Below, piece by piece: positions 1 to 7,354 of a stretch of 64,000 bases of DNA. The translations under genes were made by a program, and so were the position numbers. The notes beneath the pieces were generated by a model that worked only from the letters and a program-made list of their open reading frames with translations, made no database searches and was not told where the DNA came from. The first letter of the stretch is position 1. Each line of letters opens with the position of its first letter. Source of the stretch: Flavobacteriaceae bacterium GF1 (GTDB taxonomy: Bacteria; Bacteroidota; Bacteroidia; Flavobacteriales; Flavobacteriaceae); contig WNKP01000003.1 of the NCBI GenBank assembly GCA_009797885.1, forward strand, positions 186,001-250,000, written 5' to 3'.

Positions 1-205
1 TCTTGAGGCGATAATCCAAAATGCATAGATTGGGTTTTTCAATAGTGCCGATCATCTTCTTTACGGTCTCAATGGCCTTTTGGTATTCGTTACAGATATA
101 GGTTTTAAACGTATCAATTTTGTTTTTGTTAAAAAGTTCTTTTAAGATGAAAACATAGGCATCGCTCAATGTAGGTTCATCCTCAATGATAAGAATACGG
201 TTCAT
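1..205 (-). CDS. Response regulator, receiver domain (partial, runs off left edge)
   Basis: The gene starts at the ATG complementary to 203-205 and reads leftwards off the window, so only about 68 N-terminal residues are visible. They begin MNRILIIEDEP, the first strand and acidic pocket of a CheY-type receiver. Around residue 64 comes LDYRL, whose Asp is the expected phospho-acceptor. The output domain is outside the window, so DNA-binding and stand-alone types cannot be told apart. The upstream region (206-657) carries no same-strand gene, so this may be the first gene of its unit. The receiver fold call is firm; the function is open. Confidence 0.8.
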   Translation of the reverse strand, partial: MNRILIIEDEPTLSDAYVFILKELFNKNKIDTFKTYICNEYQKAIETVKKMIGTIEKPNLCILDYRLK

Positions 206-657
206 TCAATTTGGGTTTTTGAAATGTTATTGATTAAGTTAATTAGGTTTTCCTTGTTTAATTCTTCCATCAATTTTCCGCAAAGTTAAACCCGCAAAAT
301 TTTTGCGTTCTAGTTTTCTGTCTAAAAAATCGGAACCCAGCGCTGTGCAAAAGTCAAATACGAACTGTTTTATGGGAAAACGGACAGGAAAACGGGAGAA
401 CCAAGCCCACCAGACCTATATCCATATCGTTGGCAATAGAAGGGACATGACCAATTCATACAGTTGGTCCCATAGGGCAAAGTACAGGGCATTTGAAAAA
501 GCACGTTTCGGGTAACAACCCAAGGAAATTAAGTATTCGCCTATTGGGGTATTTTTTTCGTTTCATTTCCCATTTCAGGGAAATACCGCAACAGGATCAG
601 CGCAGAAAGCCAACTACAATCCTTCCAAAAAATCGAGGTGTACTTTTTTACGCCCTT
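206..657. other. Gene-free stretch with a short palindrome
   Basis: No convincing coding region is seen. Open frames at 303-515 and 493-750 (plus) have no recognisable domain and an odd composition. The stretch should hold the promoter of the leftward response regulator. A palindrome with 7-bp arms (CGCAAAA, centre T, TTTTGCG) lies at 293-307, about 90 bp upstream of that gene, and could be a regulatory site. Nothing else was recognised. Confidence 0.5.
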
Positions 658-858
658 TCAATCCTCTGGGGATATCATTTTACTTGTTTTATAACACTTC
701 ATTTTAAAGTCCGAGATTTCGCGGCTAAGCTTCTTGTTGGCGTTCTCTAAAAGTTCGTTTTGGGTCTTCATAATCCTCAGCAGATCATGCATAGCATTGA
801 GGTTTTCAAGTTGTACGGACACAATTTGCTCTAAATCGGCCTTGGTATATCTTCTCAT
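658..858 (-). CDS. Small coiled-coil protein, unknown function
   Basis: A 66-residue protein, charged and almost wholly helical. Leucine/asparagine-rich heptads (LEQIVSVQLENLNAMHDLL, then NELLENANKKL) predict a coiled coil across residues 8-50. There is no signal peptide, membrane segment or known catalytic motif. It is transcribed divergently from the XRE-regulator cassette starting at 1021 and shares a 162-bp intergenic region with it that carries inverted repeats. It could therefore be co-regulated with the cassette or be an accessory to it. I do not recognise the family. The heptad-rich composition makes it more likely real than a chance frame. Confidence 0.5.
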   Translation of the reverse strand: MRRYTKADLEQIVSVQLENLNAMHDLLRIMKTQNELLENANKKLSREISDFKMKCYKTSKMISPED

Positions 859-907
859 ATTTAAATTGTTTAAAGAGAAATTTATATATAGAAAATCTAT
901 GAGATAA

Positions 908-968
908 TCCAGAAATACTGGACAAATATAGATTGAATCTGGTGATTTACCAAATAGATATCCAGATT
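908..968. promoter_or_regulatory. Candidate operator: CCAG/CTGG inverted repeats
   Basis: Two inverted repeats lie in the divergent intergenic region: TCCAG-N5-CTGGA at 908-922, and AATCTGG (936-942) paired with CCAGATT (962-968). All four half-sites share a CCAG/CTGG core. The position, 50-110 bp upstream of a 72-residue XRE protein, matches how controller proteins of restriction-modification systems autoregulate. That binding is inferred. Confidence 0.45.
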
Positions 969-1020
969 TTCAAAATATTCTCATTGATTGGCTAAATTGC
1001 TATCCTGAAAAACCGCAATA

Positions 1021-1239
1021 ATGACGGAGTTAGGATTGTTTCTCGCTAAGAAAACTGTAAACAAAGCAGAAGTATCCAGGAGGACTGGAATTAGTACGTC
1101 ACGTCTAAGTGAACTGAGCTTAAAGGAATCTGCACATCTTCGAGCCAAAGAGCTCTACCTGATAGCTCTTGCAATAGACGTAGAACCTTGTGAGTTACTT
1201 ACTGAGGTTTTCAAGGATATCAAATTAGAAGGGGTATGA
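1021..1239 (+). CDS. XRE-family helix-turn-helix regulator
   Basis: A 72-residue protein that is almost only a Cro/C1-type helix-turn-helix. Residues 10-40 (KKTVNKAEVSRRTGISTSRLSEL) give the positioning and recognition helices, and KELYLIALAI (about residues 43-52) the fifth helix. This size and fold are typical of controller (C) proteins and small Cro-like repressors that set expression of restriction-modification genes. Its stop overlaps the methyltransferase start in an ATGA, so it is the first gene of a four-gene cassette. Inverted repeats 50-110 bp upstream are plausible autoregulatory sites. The fold is clear; the controller role is inferred from context. Confidence 0.85.
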   Translation: MTELGLFLAKKTVNKAEVSRRTGISTSRLSELSLKESAHLRAKELYLIALAIDVEPCELLTEVFKDIKLEGV

Positions 1240-2477
1240 ACTTAGACTTTAAGAACTCTCATACCACATATTCAACGCATGGATTTCATACCTATCCTGC
1301 CAAAATGATACCGCAGGTAGCCAAAGCACTTTTGGATGAATACGGAAAAGGGATAGAATCATTATATGACCCCTATTGCGGTTCGGGAACATCCTTAGTT
1401 GAGGCCAAGCTACATAATATCAATGCTATAGGTTCTGATTTGAACCCTCTGGCAAGACTTATTGCGAAGGTTAAAACGACTCCTATCGAATTACAGACAC
1501 TCGACTTACACCTTCAAGATTTTTACAATTATCTCTTTAACTATCGCTTTGGCTTTCGAACCAATGAGAACTCAATTATTGTCCCGACTTTTAAGAACAT
1601 AGATTTTTGGTTTTCCAGGACCGTCAAGAAAGACCTATCTATAATCTCGTGTTTTGTTGACAACATAGAAAACGTTGACATCAAAGAGTTTTTTCAGGTT
1701 GCGCTGAGCCAAACTATCCGCGAGTGCTCCTGGACAAGAAAGAATGAGTTTAAGCTCTACAAAATGAGTGCTAATCGAATTAGGATTTTCAAACCTGATA
1801 CCTTCTCGACTTTCGAAAAGATTTTAGGTAAAAATAGAAACGGCCTCAAAAGTCTTATGAAAGAGGCAGATAATGACGTAAATATTTCAATCAATAGTTT
1901 TAATAGTTCAAATTACATTTCAAGGAGAATTATTCCTGATGAAAGCATAGATATGGTCTTGACCTCTCCACCCTATGGCGATTCTTCAACTACAGTTGCC
2001 TATGGCCAGTTTTCAGCTTTGGCTAATCAGTGGTTAGGCTTTATGGAAAGAGGACGTGGTTTGGATAACGAACTTATGGGGGGTAAAAAGGCAGGCAGGA
2101 TACAAAATTTTAATTCTCTCCTATTAAATGATCAAATTAGGGAGATTGAAAGAGCCGATAGATCAAGAGCTCTTGATGTTGTCTCATTTTATCGGGATTA
2201 TTATTCGTCTATCCGGAATGTTTCCACAAAAGTGCGACCAGGTGGATATGCCTGTTATGTGGTTAGCAATCGTACAGTGCGTGGTGTTCAATTAGGAACG
2301 GGTGAGATCACTAAAGACTTTTTTGAGGCTCACGGTTTCGGTCATGTAGAAACACTCAGTAGAAATATTTCCAATAAAAGAATGCCTAAAAAGAATAGTG
2401 CCTCTGGGGTAAAGGGTAAAAAGACACCACTTATGAATAAAGAGCTAATTGTGGTAATGCAAAAGCAAGGTCGATGA
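1236..2477 (+). CDS. DNA methyltransferase (N4-cytosine/N6-adenine class)
   Basis: A 413-residue S-adenosylmethionine-dependent DNA methylase. The SAM-binding motif DPYCGSGT is at residues 45-52 and the catalytic motif TSPPY at 243-247. The SPPY form is most typical of N4-cytosine methylases, although N6-adenine enzymes with it exist. Between them lies a long variable segment, a likely target-recognition region. The N-terminal THGFHTYPAKMIP is a signature of stand-alone methylases of this group. No separate restriction endonuclease gene follows. The next gene is a helicase-nuclease overlapping by 4 nt, so modification may mark self DNA against that enzyme. The methylase call is strong; the base specificity and defence role are inferred. 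Confidence 0.92.
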   Translation: MNLDFKNSHTTYSTHGFHTYPAKMIPQVAKALLDEYGKGIESLYDPYCGSGTSLVEAKLHNINAIGSDLNPLARLIAKVKTTPIELQTLDLHLQDFYNYLFNYRFGFRTNENSIIVPTFKNIDFWFSRTVKKDLSIISCFVDNIENVDIKEFFQVALSQTIRECSWTRKNEFKLYKMSANRIRIFKPDTFSTFEKILGKNRNGLKSLMKEADNDVNISINSFNSSNYISRRIIPDESIDMVLTSPPYGDSSTTVAYGQFSALANQWLGFMERGRGLDNELMGGKKAGRIQNFNSLLLNDQIREIERADRSRALDVVSFYRDYYSSIRNVSTKVRPGGYACYVVSNRTVRGVQLGTGEITKDFFEAHGFGHVETLSRNISNKRMPKKNSASGVKGKKTPLMNKELIVVMQKQGR

Positions 2478-5302
2478 CAGAGGAAGAAAAATATGAGAAC
2501 ACGGTACAAACCGAAGATGAGAATCTGAGGATCATTGCCTGTGCCGGGTCAGGTAAAACGACTTTCGTTGCTAAGCGAGTTTCTTATCTGCTCGAATCAG
2601 GCTATGAACCAAAAAACATCATTGCCTTTACTTATACCGAGCGTGCGGCAGCGGAATTGAACAACAAGATTGTAGCCGAACTTAAGCAAAAAGGAATATT
2701 TGATGGCTTAAATGGTTTTGCAGAAATGTTTATCGGAACCATTCATGGCTGGTGTCTTAAAGCTTTGATGGATAATGAAATTGGCTATCAAAAATTCAGT
2801 GTATTAGATGATATTAAGCTTCGCTTGTTCGTAGATAAAAATTACAAAAAAATAGGAATGCCAGGCATTTCTAAACTGAATAACCCGAATGTGAATATGA
2901 AGATATTCACCGATACGGAAAGATTTATTCAGTTGATGAATATCATCCGTGAATCAGATTTGACCGAACCTCTGCCAGAACATATTGAGGAGGCAAAATC
3001 AAAATATGAAACTCTGCTTCGTGAGAACTCATATTTCGATTTCACCATGATTATGCAGGAGGCATTAGATAGATTAAAAGTTGAAGAGAGCGATCTTCAA
3101 ACTCAACTGCAAAGAGATCTCAAATTTCTGATCGTTGACGAATTCCAGGATATCAATCCAATTCAAAACGAGATTATTCGCCACCTGCATGAGATTACAG
3201 AGTGCAACGTTACCGTTGTGGGTGATGATGATCAAAATATATTCCATTGGAGAGGAAGCAATAACAAGTTCCTGAAAGATTTTCCTAATCGTTATGCTAA
3301 GATTAGACCTGTCAAGCTTTTTACTCTTGATAAAAACTACAGAAGTTCAAAGGGTATTACCGGGCTGGCTTCTGCTTTTATAGAGAAAAACCAGAAAAGG
3401 ATTGAGAAGCGAATGATCTCCGCTGAAAAGCAGCAGTTTATTCGAGATGAAGATATTCTTTATAATGAGTATTCATCACCTGAGCAGGAAAATCAGGAGA
3501 TAGTAAGAAAGATAAAAGCACTCAGAGGAGTAGCGTTTGAAAAGGATGGTGAAAAACGAGGTATTGATTATTCCGACTTCTGTATACTCCTGAGAACCTG
3601 GAAAAAATCCGCTGAGATTGTGAGTGTCTTAGAACAGCATGGCATACCGTACATTACTGCGGGAGTTAATGAACTCTTTGACAAAAGGGAAGTTCTGGCC
3701 TCTGTTGGAATCTTTCAATACTTAAATGATAAGAAAACCAAAGAGCAATTAATCCAACTATGGCTTGATATTCCTGATAATCATATTGATTCAAACCTGT
3801 TAGAAACGGCAGTTGACAACTTAGAAAAATGGAAACCGGAAAATTTTCAAAAACATAGAAAAAGTGTTGGGTGGGGGGATTTCAGAATTCAAGAAATATT
3901 CTGGGAATTTCTAAAAGATGCTGAAATTGTTGAAGAAACATTTATCACAGAAGGAGTAGAAGAAAGCATCACCCGATCTGAGATTATATTTTACAACTTA
4001 GGCAAATTCAGCCAGGTAATAAACGATTATGAAACCATTTATCTAGCCAGTGCTCCACCAAGCTTTTATCTCTTTAACTTTCTAAACTTTGTCAAGTATG
4101 CTGCCGTGGGTTACTATCCCGAGGGCTGGATGAATAACCCCTACAAAACACCGAATGCAGTTCAATTGATGACCATCCATCAATCGAAGGGTCTTGAATT
4201 CCCGGTTGTGTTTATCCCAGGGCTGAACAAAAACTACTTACCAATCCGCAAGGCAGGTGGGTTGAAGGTCTGGCATTTTCTTGATTCTTCATTAATCAAA
4301 GATCATGATAGGTATGAGCCAGAAGATGACGACAGATTAGAGGATGAACGTAGACTACTATATGTTGCAATTACACGTTCTCAAAAGTTCTTGTTTATAA
4401 GCAGAGCACCTGAGAATAACCGACTTTATAAGGACAAGTCCAGCTTCTCTAATGAGTTGGTTTCAGACTTTATTAGTCGTCCGCTCGCTCCGGTAAGTTT
4501 TGAAGACCGAGAAAAACTTGAACCAGAACAAAAAACTGAGGATGTTTCTATATCACTCAACTTTAGCGTTTTAAAGGATTTCTTTGATTGTAACTACAGG
4601 TTCAAGCTCATTACAATGTATGGGTTTTGTTTCCCTTTGAATCAAAGAATGGGATTGGGTAAATCCTTACATGATACTTTGATGGCCATTCACAAACGAC
4701 TGACAGAAGGCAAAGAGGTTGATGATGATTCTATTGAGGACTTGGCCAAAAATCAATCACACTTTCCTTATATCGGTGGCTCATCCGAATTAGAAAGGAT
4801 GAAGGAAAAGGTAGTCGAGAAATCAATTGACTACTTCAAGAAGAATGAAGAAGGCTTACAAAACATTGAATTTGTCGAACAAGACATAAAGCTCAATTTG
4901 GACGAGAATGTGTTTGTTAGTGGGCGTATTGATTTGATAAAAACCCGGCCATATGAGGGCGAGCCGGAGACTACGATCATGGAATTTAAATCCAATGACG
5001 CGGTGCAGTCTGAGACCATTACCATAGATCAATTGAATCTCTATGCGTTAGGTTACAGAGAATTAGTTGGTAAGAATGCTGATTACATACAAATCTATGA
5101 CGTAGAGAAAAATGCTGCTGAGCATAGATCACCTATTGATGAAAGGCTTCTTCAAGCCACTGAGGAGAAAATACAAGAGGCTGCCAAGAAAATCCGAAGC
5201 CAGAACCTTCCAAAGATTCAGAAGGCTGAAATATGCCGGACTTGTTTCCAGAACAGACTATGCAAAGCACGTATTGATCTTAACCTTCCTGCCAAGAAAT
5301 GA
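2474..5302 (+). CDS. UvrD-like SF1 helicase fused to Cas4/AddB-type PD-(D/E)XK nuclease
   Basis: A 942-residue fusion. The helicase part has Walker A AGSGKTT (24-30), Walker B VDEFQD (about 220-225), GDDDQNIFHWRG (about 250), MTIHQSKGLEF (about 566) and RLLYVAITRS (about 625), the standard UvrD/Rep/AddA motif series. From about 690 it continues into a PD-(D/E)XK nuclease: FSVLKDFFDC, SGRIDLI (about 815), MEFKSND (about 836) and a QLNLYALGY helix. A Cys near 706 plus C-x2-C-x5-C at about 919-928 match the [4Fe-4S] cluster pattern of AddB and Cas4 nucleases. One chain thus resembles an AddA helicase carrying an AddB-like nuclease. With the methylase it is the likely DNA-attacking part of a defence cassette; that role is inferred. 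Confidence 0.93.
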   Translation: MTEEEKYENTVQTEDENLRIIACAGSGKTTFVAKRVSYLLESGYEPKNIIAFTYTERAAAELNNKIVAELKQKGIFDGLNGFAEMFIGTIHGWCLKALMDNEIGYQKFSVLDDIKLRLFVDKNYKKIGMPGISKLNNPNVNMKIFTDTERFIQLMNIIRESDLTEPLPEHIEEAKSKYETLLRENSYFDFTMIMQEALDRLKVEESDLQTQLQRDLKFLIVDEFQDINPIQNEIIRHLHEITECNVTVVGDDDQNIFHWRGSNNKFLKDFPNRYAKIRPVKLFTLDKNYRSSKGITGLASAFIEKNQKRIEKRMISAEKQQFIRDEDILYNEYSSPEQENQEIVRKIKALRGVAFEKDGEKRGIDYSDFCILLRTWKKSAEIVSVLEQHGIPYITAGVNELFDKREVLASVGIFQYLNDKKTKEQLIQLWLDIPDNHIDSNLLETAVDNLEKWKPENFQKHRKSVGWGDFRIQEIFWEFLKDAEIVEETFITEGVEESITRSEIIFYNLGKFSQVINDYETIYLASAPPSFYLFNFLNFVKYAAVGYYPEGWMNNPYKTPNAVQLMTIHQSKGLEFPVVFIPGLNKNYLPIRKAGGLKVWHFLDSSLIKDHDRYEPEDDDRLEDERRLLYVAITRSQKFLFISRAPENNRLYKDKSSFSNELVSDFISRPLAPVSFEDREKLEPEQKTEDVSISLNFSVLKDFFDCNYRFKLITMYGFCFPLNQRMGLGKSLHDTLMAIHKRLTEGKEVDDDSIEDLAKNQSHFPYIGGSSELERMKEKVVEKSIDYFKKNEEGLQNIEFVEQDIKLNLDENVFVSGRIDLIKTRPYEGEPETTIMEFKSNDAVQSETITIDQLNLYALGYRELVGKNADYIQIYDVEKNAAEHRSPIDERLLQATEEKIQEAAKKIRSQNLPKIQKAEICRTCFQNRLCKARIDLNLPAKK

Positions 5303-6066
5303 ATTCTTCAGACAAACAATATAAACGGCTGAAAAAGCTTTTCAACAATCCAAAGAATGTTCTGGTGATTCATTGGGCACGTCAAAACCTGAAAGACAAC
5401 CAGGGAGGATATAGTACACCGCGTATAATCGCTATTATGATTCGTTCTCTGGACGAATCAATTACCAAAATCTTTGCAATTCACTTAGAGGCAGAAAAGT
5501 CAGGCTTTACCTCAGAGGATATTGAAACTTACTATGATCAGCTTGAAGAACAGGTTTTAAAAGACTTCAACGAATTTGTGAGAGAATACAATAACTGTGA
5601 TTGGGTTTATTGGGATTCTGATGACCCACATTCAGGCTTTGAAGCGACAAGTCATAGATACCACGTTTTAGTTAATAAGGAAGATCAGGATTTAGTTGAA
5701 ATACCATTTCATAAAAGGGTTAGCCTAAACTCTTGTTTAAAAGAAATATATGGAGCAAATTATGAGAATGACCCCCAATTGGATAACCTGATGAAGTCCA
5801 ATAATGATGGCCAATTAAAAGCCAATGTCCTCTCTATTCAGGATGAAGCCAGAGCATTCAAAAACTCTGAATTCCCAGGAATACTACAATCTATAAAAAG
5901 TAAAGCTGATTTTCTGATTGAGGTAATTCGGAAAGTGGTTAATAAGAACCTGTCCGTAAGCAATAAGAACTTCTTGTATCGAATGGGAAAATTCTTCAGC
6001 CACCCGATAATGATTGCGATTGCTTGGACATGCACGGTTATCAGTTTAATCATAGGCTTTTTTTAA
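5299..6066 (+). CDS. Membrane-anchored protein of unknown function, last gene of the cassette
   Basis: A 255-residue protein with a soluble N-terminal region of about 225 residues and a single hydrophobic helix at the extreme C-terminus (about 233-255, IMIAIAWTCTVISLIIGFF), so probably tail-anchored in the inner membrane. Visible landmarks are VIHWARQNL (about 23), IRSLDES (about 49) and a Trp/Asp-rich patch NNCDWVYWDSDDPHSGFEA (about 97-115). I do not recognise a named domain. The conserved-looking acidic/aromatic patch could be catalytic. Its start overlaps the helicase-nuclease stop (ATGA), so it is made with the cassette. A membrane-anchored last gene is reminiscent of membrane-acting effectors in abortive-infection systems, but that is only a hypothesis. 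Confidence 0.75.
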   Translation: MNSSDKQYKRLKKLFNNPKNVLVIHWARQNLKDNQGGYSTPRIIAIMIRSLDESITKIFAIHLEAEKSGFTSEDIETYYDQLEEQVLKDFNEFVREYNNCDWVYWDSDDPHSGFEATSHRYHVLVNKEDQDLVEIPFHKRVSLNSCLKEIYGANYENDPQLDNLMKSNNDGQLKANVLSIQDEARAFKNSEFPGILQSIKSKADFLIEVIRKVVNKNLSVSNKNFLYRMGKFFSHPIMIAIAWTCTVISLIIGFF

Positions 6067-6070
6067 TGGG

Positions 6071-6121
6071 TTTTGTTGGAATTGTTGGTAACTCGAAGAG
6101 TTACCAACAATTCCAACAAAA
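6071..6121 (+). terminator. Perfect 24-bp stem hairpin after the cassette
   Basis: Arms at 6071-6094 and 6098-6121 are perfect reverse complements separated by a 3-nt loop (GAA). The left arm begins TTTTGTTGG and the right arm ends CCAACAAAA. It starts 4 bp after the stop codon of the membrane protein. The A/T ends make it work as an intrinsic terminator in both directions. Confidence 0.8.
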
Positions 6122-6134
6122 TAGTAGTAGTAAT

Positions 6135-6169
6135 AGCTGCTTTAAAAAAACGTATTTTATAAAGCAGCT
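6135..6169. repeat. Second hairpin, 10-bp arms
   Basis: AGCTGCTTTA (6135-6144) pairs with TAAAGCAGCT (6160-6169) around a 15-nt A/T-rich loop. It follows directly on the cassette terminator and may be a back-up terminator or part of a mobile-element border. Confidence 0.4.
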
Positions 6170-6225
6170 GGTGAAACCACTCTTCCTTTACCCAGCTCTT
6201 CTTTGCCCATTTCTAAAATAAGTGC

Positions 6226-6660
6226 CCGATAGGGCGTGTTTTTAGAAAAGCGCAAGCTCTCTACTGGTAAAGCCCGCCCGCTTTGTTGCTTGTAGCGGCG
6301 TGGTATTTACCCCACTTTCCATTTCATTAGGCACGGGCGAAGCCCAAAAGAGAAGCACCAAACGGCCAGAGGCCGCAAAAACGCAGACAGGGCAAAACCC
6401 GGTTGATCCCGTTGAAGCGGGAAGCACCCCAAAAAAGAAAAACCAACACTCTCCAACCCACCCAGGATCGCCCCGAAGCTCGAAGAGCGGCAAAAACTTC
6501 TCTCAGCCTGTCGAAACGCCAGTCCAGGCCAATGCAGGAGTCTTGCCGAAGTGAAACACAGGCCCGATTCTGACGCGACCCTGAGCCTAACGGGCGAAGC
6601 CTCCGACGATTCTTAACGGTGGAATGCCCGTCGTACCGGACTGACTACTGACTGTGAATA
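6226..6660. other. GC-rich gene-free segment, possible mobile-element scar
   Basis: This stretch is visibly richer in G+C than both neighbours and holds no credible gene; a frame at 6300-6554 encodes only low-complexity Pro/Lys/Ser sequence. The 12-mer ACGGGCGAAGCC occurs twice, at 6333-6344 and 6590-6601. Short hairpins such as CGGCC-AGA-GGCCG are present. It resembles non-coding ends of transferred elements and adjoins the defence-like cassette. No integrase or transposase remains. Confidence 0.4.
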
Positions 6661-6715
6661 GACTGCTTATAAAAGGTTAGAACTGTGTATATGGACTCCC
6701 GATAAATAAATACTG

Positions 6716-6755
6716 AAAAGTCCCCTTGGAAAGTTTACCTTCCAAGGGGACTTTT
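6716..6755. terminator. Bidirectional intrinsic terminator
   Basis: The arm AAAAGTCCCCTTGGAA (6716-6731) and its reverse complement (6740-6755) form a 16-bp stem with an 8-nt loop. A run of T follows on the plus strand and A precedes it, so it can terminate on either strand. It separates the gene-free segment from the acetyltransferase. Confidence 0.8.
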
Positions 6756-6838
6756 TGTTTTTAGGAATAATTAAAGCAACGCTTTAATTTGTAATACCCT
6801 TAATTGAATCCCAATTTTTTAAGTTCTTTATCCCTTAA

Positions 6839-7354
6839 ATGCTTAAAATGAATGAATTGACATTGACCACTGAGCGTTTGTGGCTAAGGCCTACTGCCGT
6901 TTATGATGCCGAATTCATCTATGCATTAATGAATACGCCAAAATGGTTGCAATACATAGGTGACAGGAACATAAAGACCCTTAAGGACGCTGAAAAATAT
7001 ATCTTGGACAATATCATCCCGCAACGGGAAAGGCTGGGTTATTCAACCTATGCCGTCATTAAAAAAGCGGATAATAGCAAAATGGGGACCTGCGGTCTAT
7101 ACGATAGGGAAGGACTGGAGGGTATCGACATCGGCTTTGCCTTTCTTCCGGAGTATGAAAGAAGGGGATATGCGCTTGAAGCCACGAGGGCACTAATTGA
7201 GACTTCGGCCAAGAAATTCAAGCTGGATGCGCTGAGCGGAATAACGGCAAAGGATAATGTAGCATCCCAAAACCTATTAAAAAAACTGGGGTTTGCGTTT
7301 TCCAAGACCATTAGGTTAAAAGAAACGGAATTGCTCTTATTCAATATTGTGTAG
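6839..7354 (+). CDS. GNAT-family N-acetyltransferase (RimJ/RimL type)
   Basis: A 171-residue protein with the layout of the Acetyltransf_3/RimJ-RimL group. It opens with LTTERLWLRP (about 7-16), has the acetyl-CoA-binding strand and loop DIGFAFLPEYERRGYALEA (about 97-115), and ends with the SQNLLKKLGF motif (about 143-152). This group moves acetyl from acetyl-CoA to an alpha-amino group of a ribosomal protein, other protein or small molecule; the acceptor cannot be read here. A second in-frame ATG at 6848 is an equally good start. It stands alone between a strong terminator and the histidine-kinase promoter. Confidence 0.88.
   Translation: MLKMNELTLTTERLWLRPTAVYDAEFIYALMNTPKWLQYIGDRNIKTLKDAEKYILDNIIPQRERLGYSTYAVIKKADNSKMGTCGLYDREGLEGIDIGFAFLPEYERRGYALEATRALIETSAKKFKLDALSGITAKDNVASQNLLKKLGFAFSKTIRLKETELLLFNIV

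Follow-up and report, generated by a model that had tools for sequence, protein, structure and literature searches.

What does a DNA methyltransferase do directly in front of a fused helicase-nuclease, and could the latter have taken over the part of a restriction enzyme? This question is raised by a locus of Flavobacteriaceae bacterium GF1 (contig WNKP01000003.1), which lies within a stretch of 64,000 nucleotides that was analysed as a whole and is referred to as the window. Four open reading frames, all on the plus strand, occupy window positions 1021-6066, and each of the three junctions between them is an ATGA stop/start overlap, which is what the initial annotation had described; likewise its domain calls (HTH, methylase, UvrD plus PD-(D/E)XK) were found to agree with Pfam. 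The features of the locus are as follows.

1021-1239, plus strand: P0001, XRE/Cro-type HTH regulator, 72 aa (Pfam HTH_26, 5.8e-7)
1236-2477, plus strand: P0002, DNA methyltransferase (MTase), 413 aa, kin of the MTases that have MvaI/BcnI partners (PADLOC, Pfam, motifs, tree)
2474-5302, plus strand: P0003, UvrD-Cas4 helicase-nuclease, 942 aa (Pfam, orthologues, tree)
4556-5263, plus strand: PD-(D/E)XK nuclease domain of P0003, residues 695-930 (D820, E837, K839, Q853, Y857; Cys 706, 921, 924 and 930)
5299-6066, plus strand: P0004, 255 aa, phrog_8766 family, with a C-terminal hydrophobic helix at 237-255 (profile and hydrophobicity)
6070-6122, no strand assigned: long hairpin immediately 3' of the operon (fold -36.2 kcal/mol; without a T run after it)

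As documented in the following, the cassette is a real, patchily distributed restriction-modification (R-M)-like module, for which the company of its genes suggests a role in defence.

Flanks of the locus

The genes had been described as neighboured by terminators and a GC-rich scar, suggestive of horizontal gain. Strong hairpins and a GC-rich block are indeed present, but the hairpin at 6070-6122 was not among the terminator-like sites of a terminator-type scan. A second strong hairpin is located downstream of the operon at 6714-6757, and between the two resides the block at 6241-6640 (55.5% GC as compared to 42.9% for the whole window), which has open frames on both strands and of which a genome search revealed no full second copy. 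Rfam models gave nothing above gathering scores for window positions 1-7000. Horizontal gain found support in the same-genus genome G007, which shares the downstream flank, the GNAT gene therein being kept at 88% DNA identity, and within the stretch examined lacks the cassette at the matching place, the upstream region being different there; P0004 was found in none of 10 same-genus genomes searched. Divergent from the XRE gene, a 66-aa open reading frame is located at 658-858 (minus strand), possibly encoding a small regulator. Further away, at 20377-40952, inspection by eye revealed a polysaccharide-utilisation-like region with a SusC/SusD-like pair, sulfatases and glycosidases.

The helicase-nuclease belongs to a methylase-associated family

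P0003 matches the Pfam families UvrD-helicase (2.2e-47), UvrD_C (7.3e-43) and PDDEXK_1 (5.8e-17) and shows a weak similarity to Cas_Cas4 (3.6e-5). In a scan of genome contigs, 13 orthologues with 40-55% identity were identified, along with a single weak match from an archaeon. Throughout 14 sequences, D820, K839, Q853 and Y857 as well as the main helicase motifs are invariant and position 837 is E or D, and both the helicase and the nuclease motifs of P0003 are intact. Cys706 and Cys921 are invariant too, while Cys924 and Cys930 are at least 90% conserved, which fits the [4Fe-4S]-type Cys pattern proposed initially; orthologue L050 lacks part of this pattern.

Nine of the 13 orthologues (L046-L054) directly precede a Mod/Res-type pair, L055 is followed by a larger methylase and a ResIII/SNF2-like helicase, and L044 and L045 are cassettes as described below. 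More distant relatives adjoin genes for Dcm, Vsr, MspI or MvaI/BcnI, or for Mod together with a Res- or TnsA-like gene, and relatives also occur on plasmids and viral contigs. When the 49 full-length members were considered, a set which includes several near-copies and excludes UvrD relatives below 850 aa or 140 bits, R-M genes were found within 4 kb of UvrD-Cas4 in 44, the context labels being based on 20 R-M query proteins taken from 11 of the same loci. A UvrD-Cas4 tree, calculated by a quick method, placed P0003 inside this methylase-associated family and revealed the five cassette members together with L043 as one group of six (98) beside members linked to type III R-M systems. L043, whose UvrD-Cas4 is 55% identical to P0003 and nested in the cassette group, has neither an MTase nor P0004 adjacent to it; upstream of it are genes for an HNH_2/Mrr_N protein and, at a distance of 6.5 kb, for a P0002-like MTase (30%).

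The UvrD-Cas4 family was described in 2017 as comprising predicted defence components that are linked to type III R-M and Dcm (PMC5704561), and among the open-access literature searched the name was found in this report only; UvrD-like helicases fused to Cas4-like nucleases are also mentioned for Nocardia neighbourhoods (PMC7641849). As P0003 belongs to the family of 2017, in which fusions with methylase company had thus been in print (PMC5704561), the helicase-nuclease itself is not undescribed, contrary to what had been assumed, and the new part is the combination.

The methyltransferase has changed its partner

P0002 matches the Type II methyltransferase model MTase_II of PADLOC (PDLC03322, 1.3e-119) and, in Pfam, N6_N4_Mtase (5.9e-7) plus UPF0020. 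Its motifs YPAKMIP (20), DPYCGSGTS (45) and TSPPYGDS (243) follow an order (YPA..P, DPYCGSGT, TSPPY) that resembles the alpha arrangement of amino-methyltransferases.

The relatives of P0002 (METHYLTRANSFERASE) were found to come in kinds, which are distinguished by identity and partner gene. At 41-52% identity, an MvaI/BcnI endonuclease gene adjoins in seven of seven genomes (five from one scan and two from another), and on plasmids, at 32-44% identity, such a gene, recognised by Pfam or annotation, adjoins in all five loci examined out of 12 plasmid matches. The 58-60% class comprises the window, L044, L045, G663 and G664; here UvrD-Cas4 directly follows the MTase in 5/5, and the MvaI/BcnI gene was found in none of the five cassette loci. 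Relatives at 24-32%, which stand outside the count of seven, have neither partner in 11 genomes (12 places, with short flanks or stretches), and G379, at 32%, possesses a BsaWI-type enzyme. The methylase had initially been portrayed as one without a restriction partner, which holds for the window, where none was found, but not for its kin, which do have one of the MvaI/BcnI type.

A tree built from 19 MTase rows unites the five cassette MTases in one clade (98/99), which was recovered in 100% of 200 bootstrap trees, and none of 500 shuffles gave a value as low; the tree does not contain the split P0002 relative L039/L040, whose MvaI/BcnI neighbour is counted, and L043 carried the label 'other' therein even though it has a UvrD-Cas4 gene at a distance of 6.5 kb from the MTase. 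When viral_contigs was scanned with the MTase clade, no further cassette came up. The possibility of an MvaI/BcnI enzyme hidden elsewhere in the genome was considered and dropped, as a genome-wide search with PF15515 was negative for all three cassette genomes (that of the window, G663 and G664) and positive for three of three control genomes; since the same kind of search with PF12705 missed the window's own P0003, this absence is regarded as likely, not as final.

Trees and gene content together document that the MTase lineage changed its partner, the simplest history being a single change by which the MvaI/BcnI enzyme would have given way to a UvrD-Cas4 from a type III-linked lineage. While the methylase company of the helicase-nuclease was known already, what is added here is the partner that was left behind, MvaI/BcnI.

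Comparison of the five cassette loci

The order of MTase followed by UvrD-Cas4 is the same in five separate genomes, on which number of loci the comparison rests, and both the window and L175 show an ATGA overlap between the two genes. Next after UvrD-Cas4, a member of the P0004 family is encoded in four of these loci, namely the window, L044 (50%), L045 (36%) and L174 (29%), and is missing in L175. The XRE gene, in turn, resides upstream of the MTase in the window alone (1/5), as no such gene was seen at this position in L044, L045, L174 and L175 when read by eye; XRE-like genes are nearby in two of these loci, downstream in L044 and near L174. P0001 is controller-like by appearance and the XRE gene is not part of the conserved set. 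Of the co-occurrence that was proposed as a check on the cassette, the MTase/helicase-nuclease pair in five genomes and the P0004 family in four hold up while the XRE gene is confined to the window, and because of this 1/5 occurrence the idea of the four genes as a unit is not supported.

L175 (G664), which is the sole cassette without P0004, carries a divergent HNH_2 endonuclease gene (360 aa, 6.2e-12; L175:6567-7649, minus strand) that adjoins the MTase gene. This enzyme may be an alternative restriction partner, hence the restriction half of this locus is not necessarily UvrD-Cas4. In L174, an XRE gene and a gene for a 391-aa protein are located about 0.3-1.7 kb from the P0004-like gene, the protein having a sub-threshold nuclease match only (YhcG_C, 0.0061). 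Within the inspected stretches of the window, L044 and L045, no further endonuclease gene was recognised. In two loci the cassette is preceded, at L044:4399-6217 and L045:5634-6698, by a gene for an AbiEii-type nucleotidyltransferase (PF08843), the upstream region of L044 also having a DUF6577 gene; no AbiEii-type gene was seen in the window.

The fourth protein

P0004 matches phrog_8766 over most of its length (2.8e-30, residues 9-226), and Pfam gave no family above cut-off. It had been depicted as a tail-anchored protein of unknown fold, and its C-terminus is indeed hydrophobic (mean KD 2.37 at 237-255). When 18 family members were aligned, a stretch of 19 residues close to the C-terminus reached a mean hydrophobicity of 1.7 or more in 16, the exceptions being L038, which lacks the helix, and L136, in which it is weak; in the P0004-like protein of L174 a weaker stretch (1.58) is found at residue 236 of 326 and hence not at the end.

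Outside the cassettes, relatives were found in five plasmid records, eight phage records (seven of these streptococcal) and nine viral-contig loci. Within the stretches of 16 such loci (14 plasmid or viral ones plus L037 and L038), our own queries detected neither the MTase nor UvrD-Cas4. L037 has a shorter UvrD helicase, and in L038 the P0004 relative is followed, at a distance of about 1.8 kb, by a type III-like Res/Mod pair (L038:10877-15724). In Agrobacterium (L064:4848-8783) a relative starts about 20 bases after a gene for a TrlF family AAA-like ATPase.

With regard to a possible DEDD/PolB-type exonuclease fold, a profile comparison by hhalign revealed a weak similarity of P0004 to the PolB-like exonuclease family PF10108 (probability 27.7; score 33.3, while 60 column-shuffled controls reached 25.8 or less), and its profile found no match among PDB sequences. 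P0004 matches neither a toxin nor an ATPase family, and the relatives scanned gave no toxin match either. The open-access literature searched contains no paper on 'phrog 8766'. P0004 is suggested to be a membrane-anchored accessory, possibly one that binds nucleic acids, and by its place in the cassette a family of prophages and plasmids so far without an assigned function gains a functional setting.

Relation to known systems

The closest relatives by MTase are the MvaI/BcnI-type Type II R-M systems (PF15515), with which the cassette shares the MTase family at 32-52% identity and whose plasmid loci have a small HTH gene in four of five examined (annotation or Pfam); unlike in these systems, UvrD-Cas4 follows the MTase here and the PF15515 endonuclease was not found (five loci; 0/3 genomes). 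With the loci that combine UvrD-Cas4 and type III R-M (Mod/Res) or Dcm/Vsr, the helicase-nuclease family and its methylase company are common (PMC5704561), but the cassette has another MTase class, no Mod, Res, Dcm or Vsr gene and in addition the phrog_8766 gene. Section 8 of PMC5704561 does not name the context of a P0002-type MTase with UvrD-Cas4. The claim that no named system has this exact set stands as far as the best 25 PADLOC models per protein are concerned, but the UvrD-Cas4/methylase company as such was described in 2017 (PMC5704561).

Several known systems were considered and dropped. A type III R-M system was dropped, as no Mod and Res genes are adjacent. With Gabija, the UvrD-like helicase is shared, and GajB helicases, together with RTasHel of DRT, make up the best 25 of 54 PADLOC models for P0003; however, P0003 has its own nuclease and exceeds the listed GajB models (382-725 positions) in length, and no GajA-type match was among those listed for the four proteins. 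Hma (helicase, m5C methyltransferase and ATPase) as outlined in PMC8565338 likewise combines a helicase and a methylase in one operon, but P0002 is of the N6/N4 class with no m5C family listed, the helicase is nuclease-fused and an ATPase gene is missing. Finally, AddAB/RecBCD also consists of a UvrD-type helicase with a RecB-like nuclease; a housekeeping role of this kind was dropped as the cell encodes a separate AddAB-like pair at G000:C11, with proteins of 1030 and 922 aa whose assignment was made from domains and not from a named model. P0003 is hence not the cell's sole recombination enzyme, in line with the initial proposal of a defence cassette, and another UvrD/PcrA-like helicase is encoded in the same cell.

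Proposed function and alternatives

With moderate confidence we read the operon as an R-M-like defence system in which UvrD-Cas4 took the place of the restriction enzyme, the MTase marks self and recruits, P0004 is an accessory and the XRE protein a controller. P0002, by its family and motifs, would methylate the host's own recognition sites. UvrD-Cas4 would act as the restriction half, having replaced, on a single occasion among the ancestors of the MTase clade, an endonuclease of the MvaI/BcnI type. By analogy with type III R-M, the MTase most likely also serves as the recognition subunit which, at an unmodified site, would recruit or license UvrD-Cas4, an idea put forward because the cassette UvrD-Cas4 groups with type III-linked members; the recruited enzyme would then, by the same reasoning, unwind DNA at the expense of ATP and cut it. 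P0004 may support this process as a membrane-anchored accessory, and the XRE protein may control expression locally. A more far-reaching version, namely a distinct class of ATP-driven R-M systems with the MTase as recognition subunit, UvrD-Cas4 replacing the endonuclease and a membrane-anchored, exonuclease-fold P0004 siting the complex where phage DNA enters, is considered unlikely in this full form.

The main doubt about the preferred reading arises from the family itself. In loci of the type III, MspI and MvaI/Dcm kinds, UvrD-Cas4 occurs together with a restriction enzyme, hence its usual role may be an ancillary one, and such a role is a live rival, which we judge possible though doubtful for the cassette. 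It assumes that the MTase is self-protective or regulatory, or the partner of an unlinked or unrecognised nuclease, and that UvrD-Cas4 degrades broken or foreign DNA after other cutters, so that the pair alone would not restrict. The authors of the 2017 report argued for an ancillary UvrD-Cas4 because of its several contexts and a stand-alone form (PMC5704561). The contexts described above, with type III, MspI and MvaI/BcnI genes and, in L175 and L043, an HNH_2 gene beside UvrD-Cas4, point in the same direction, and L043 in particular, with its related UvrD-Cas4 beside an HNH_2 protein and without adjacent MTase or P0004, weighs against the restriction reading. For their activity, UvrD-like helicases in most cases depend on a single-strand tail or an end, and no other cutter that might provide one was seen in the window. 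The ancillary role is opposed by the coupling, in five cassettes, of UvrD-Cas4 to one MTase clade devoid of the MvaI/BcnI gene, by the MTase/helicase ATGA overlap in the window and L175, and by the inspected stretches of the window, L044 and L045, in which no endonuclease gene was recognised. The cassette can be regarded as a natural experiment on UvrD-Cas4, as kin MTases keep a known endonuclease while the cassette clade pairs with the helicase-nuclease. Since the window combines MTase and UvrD-Cas4 with no other recognised cutter, the question of 2017, helper or effector, becomes testable with two genes.

Rather improbable is abortive infection, by which UvrD-Cas4 would sense or process phage DNA, the membrane-anchored P0004 would kill the cell and the methylase would silence the system. 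The C-terminal hydrophobic helix computed for most P0004-family members, the occurrence of this family in prophages and on plasmids and the AbiEii-type genes just upstream in L044 and L045 would fit such a mechanism, but L175 possesses MTase and UvrD-Cas4 without P0004, and neither P0004 nor its scanned relatives match a toxin family. A main role as cargo of a mobile element, serving element stability or anti-restriction and not phage defence, is very improbable: relatives of P0003 and P0004 do reside on plasmids and viral contigs and G007 has no cassette at the corresponding place, but when the open reading frames of 18 kb upstream and of the first 14 kb of the window were read by eye, no gene for an integrase, a relaxase or a phage protein stood out.

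A further two-gene arrangement was observed in L035 and L036 (near-copies, L036 being near a contig end), which consists of Dcm and UvrD-Cas4; the queries used brought up no further R-M gene there, and the arrangement is a candidate for another minimal system.
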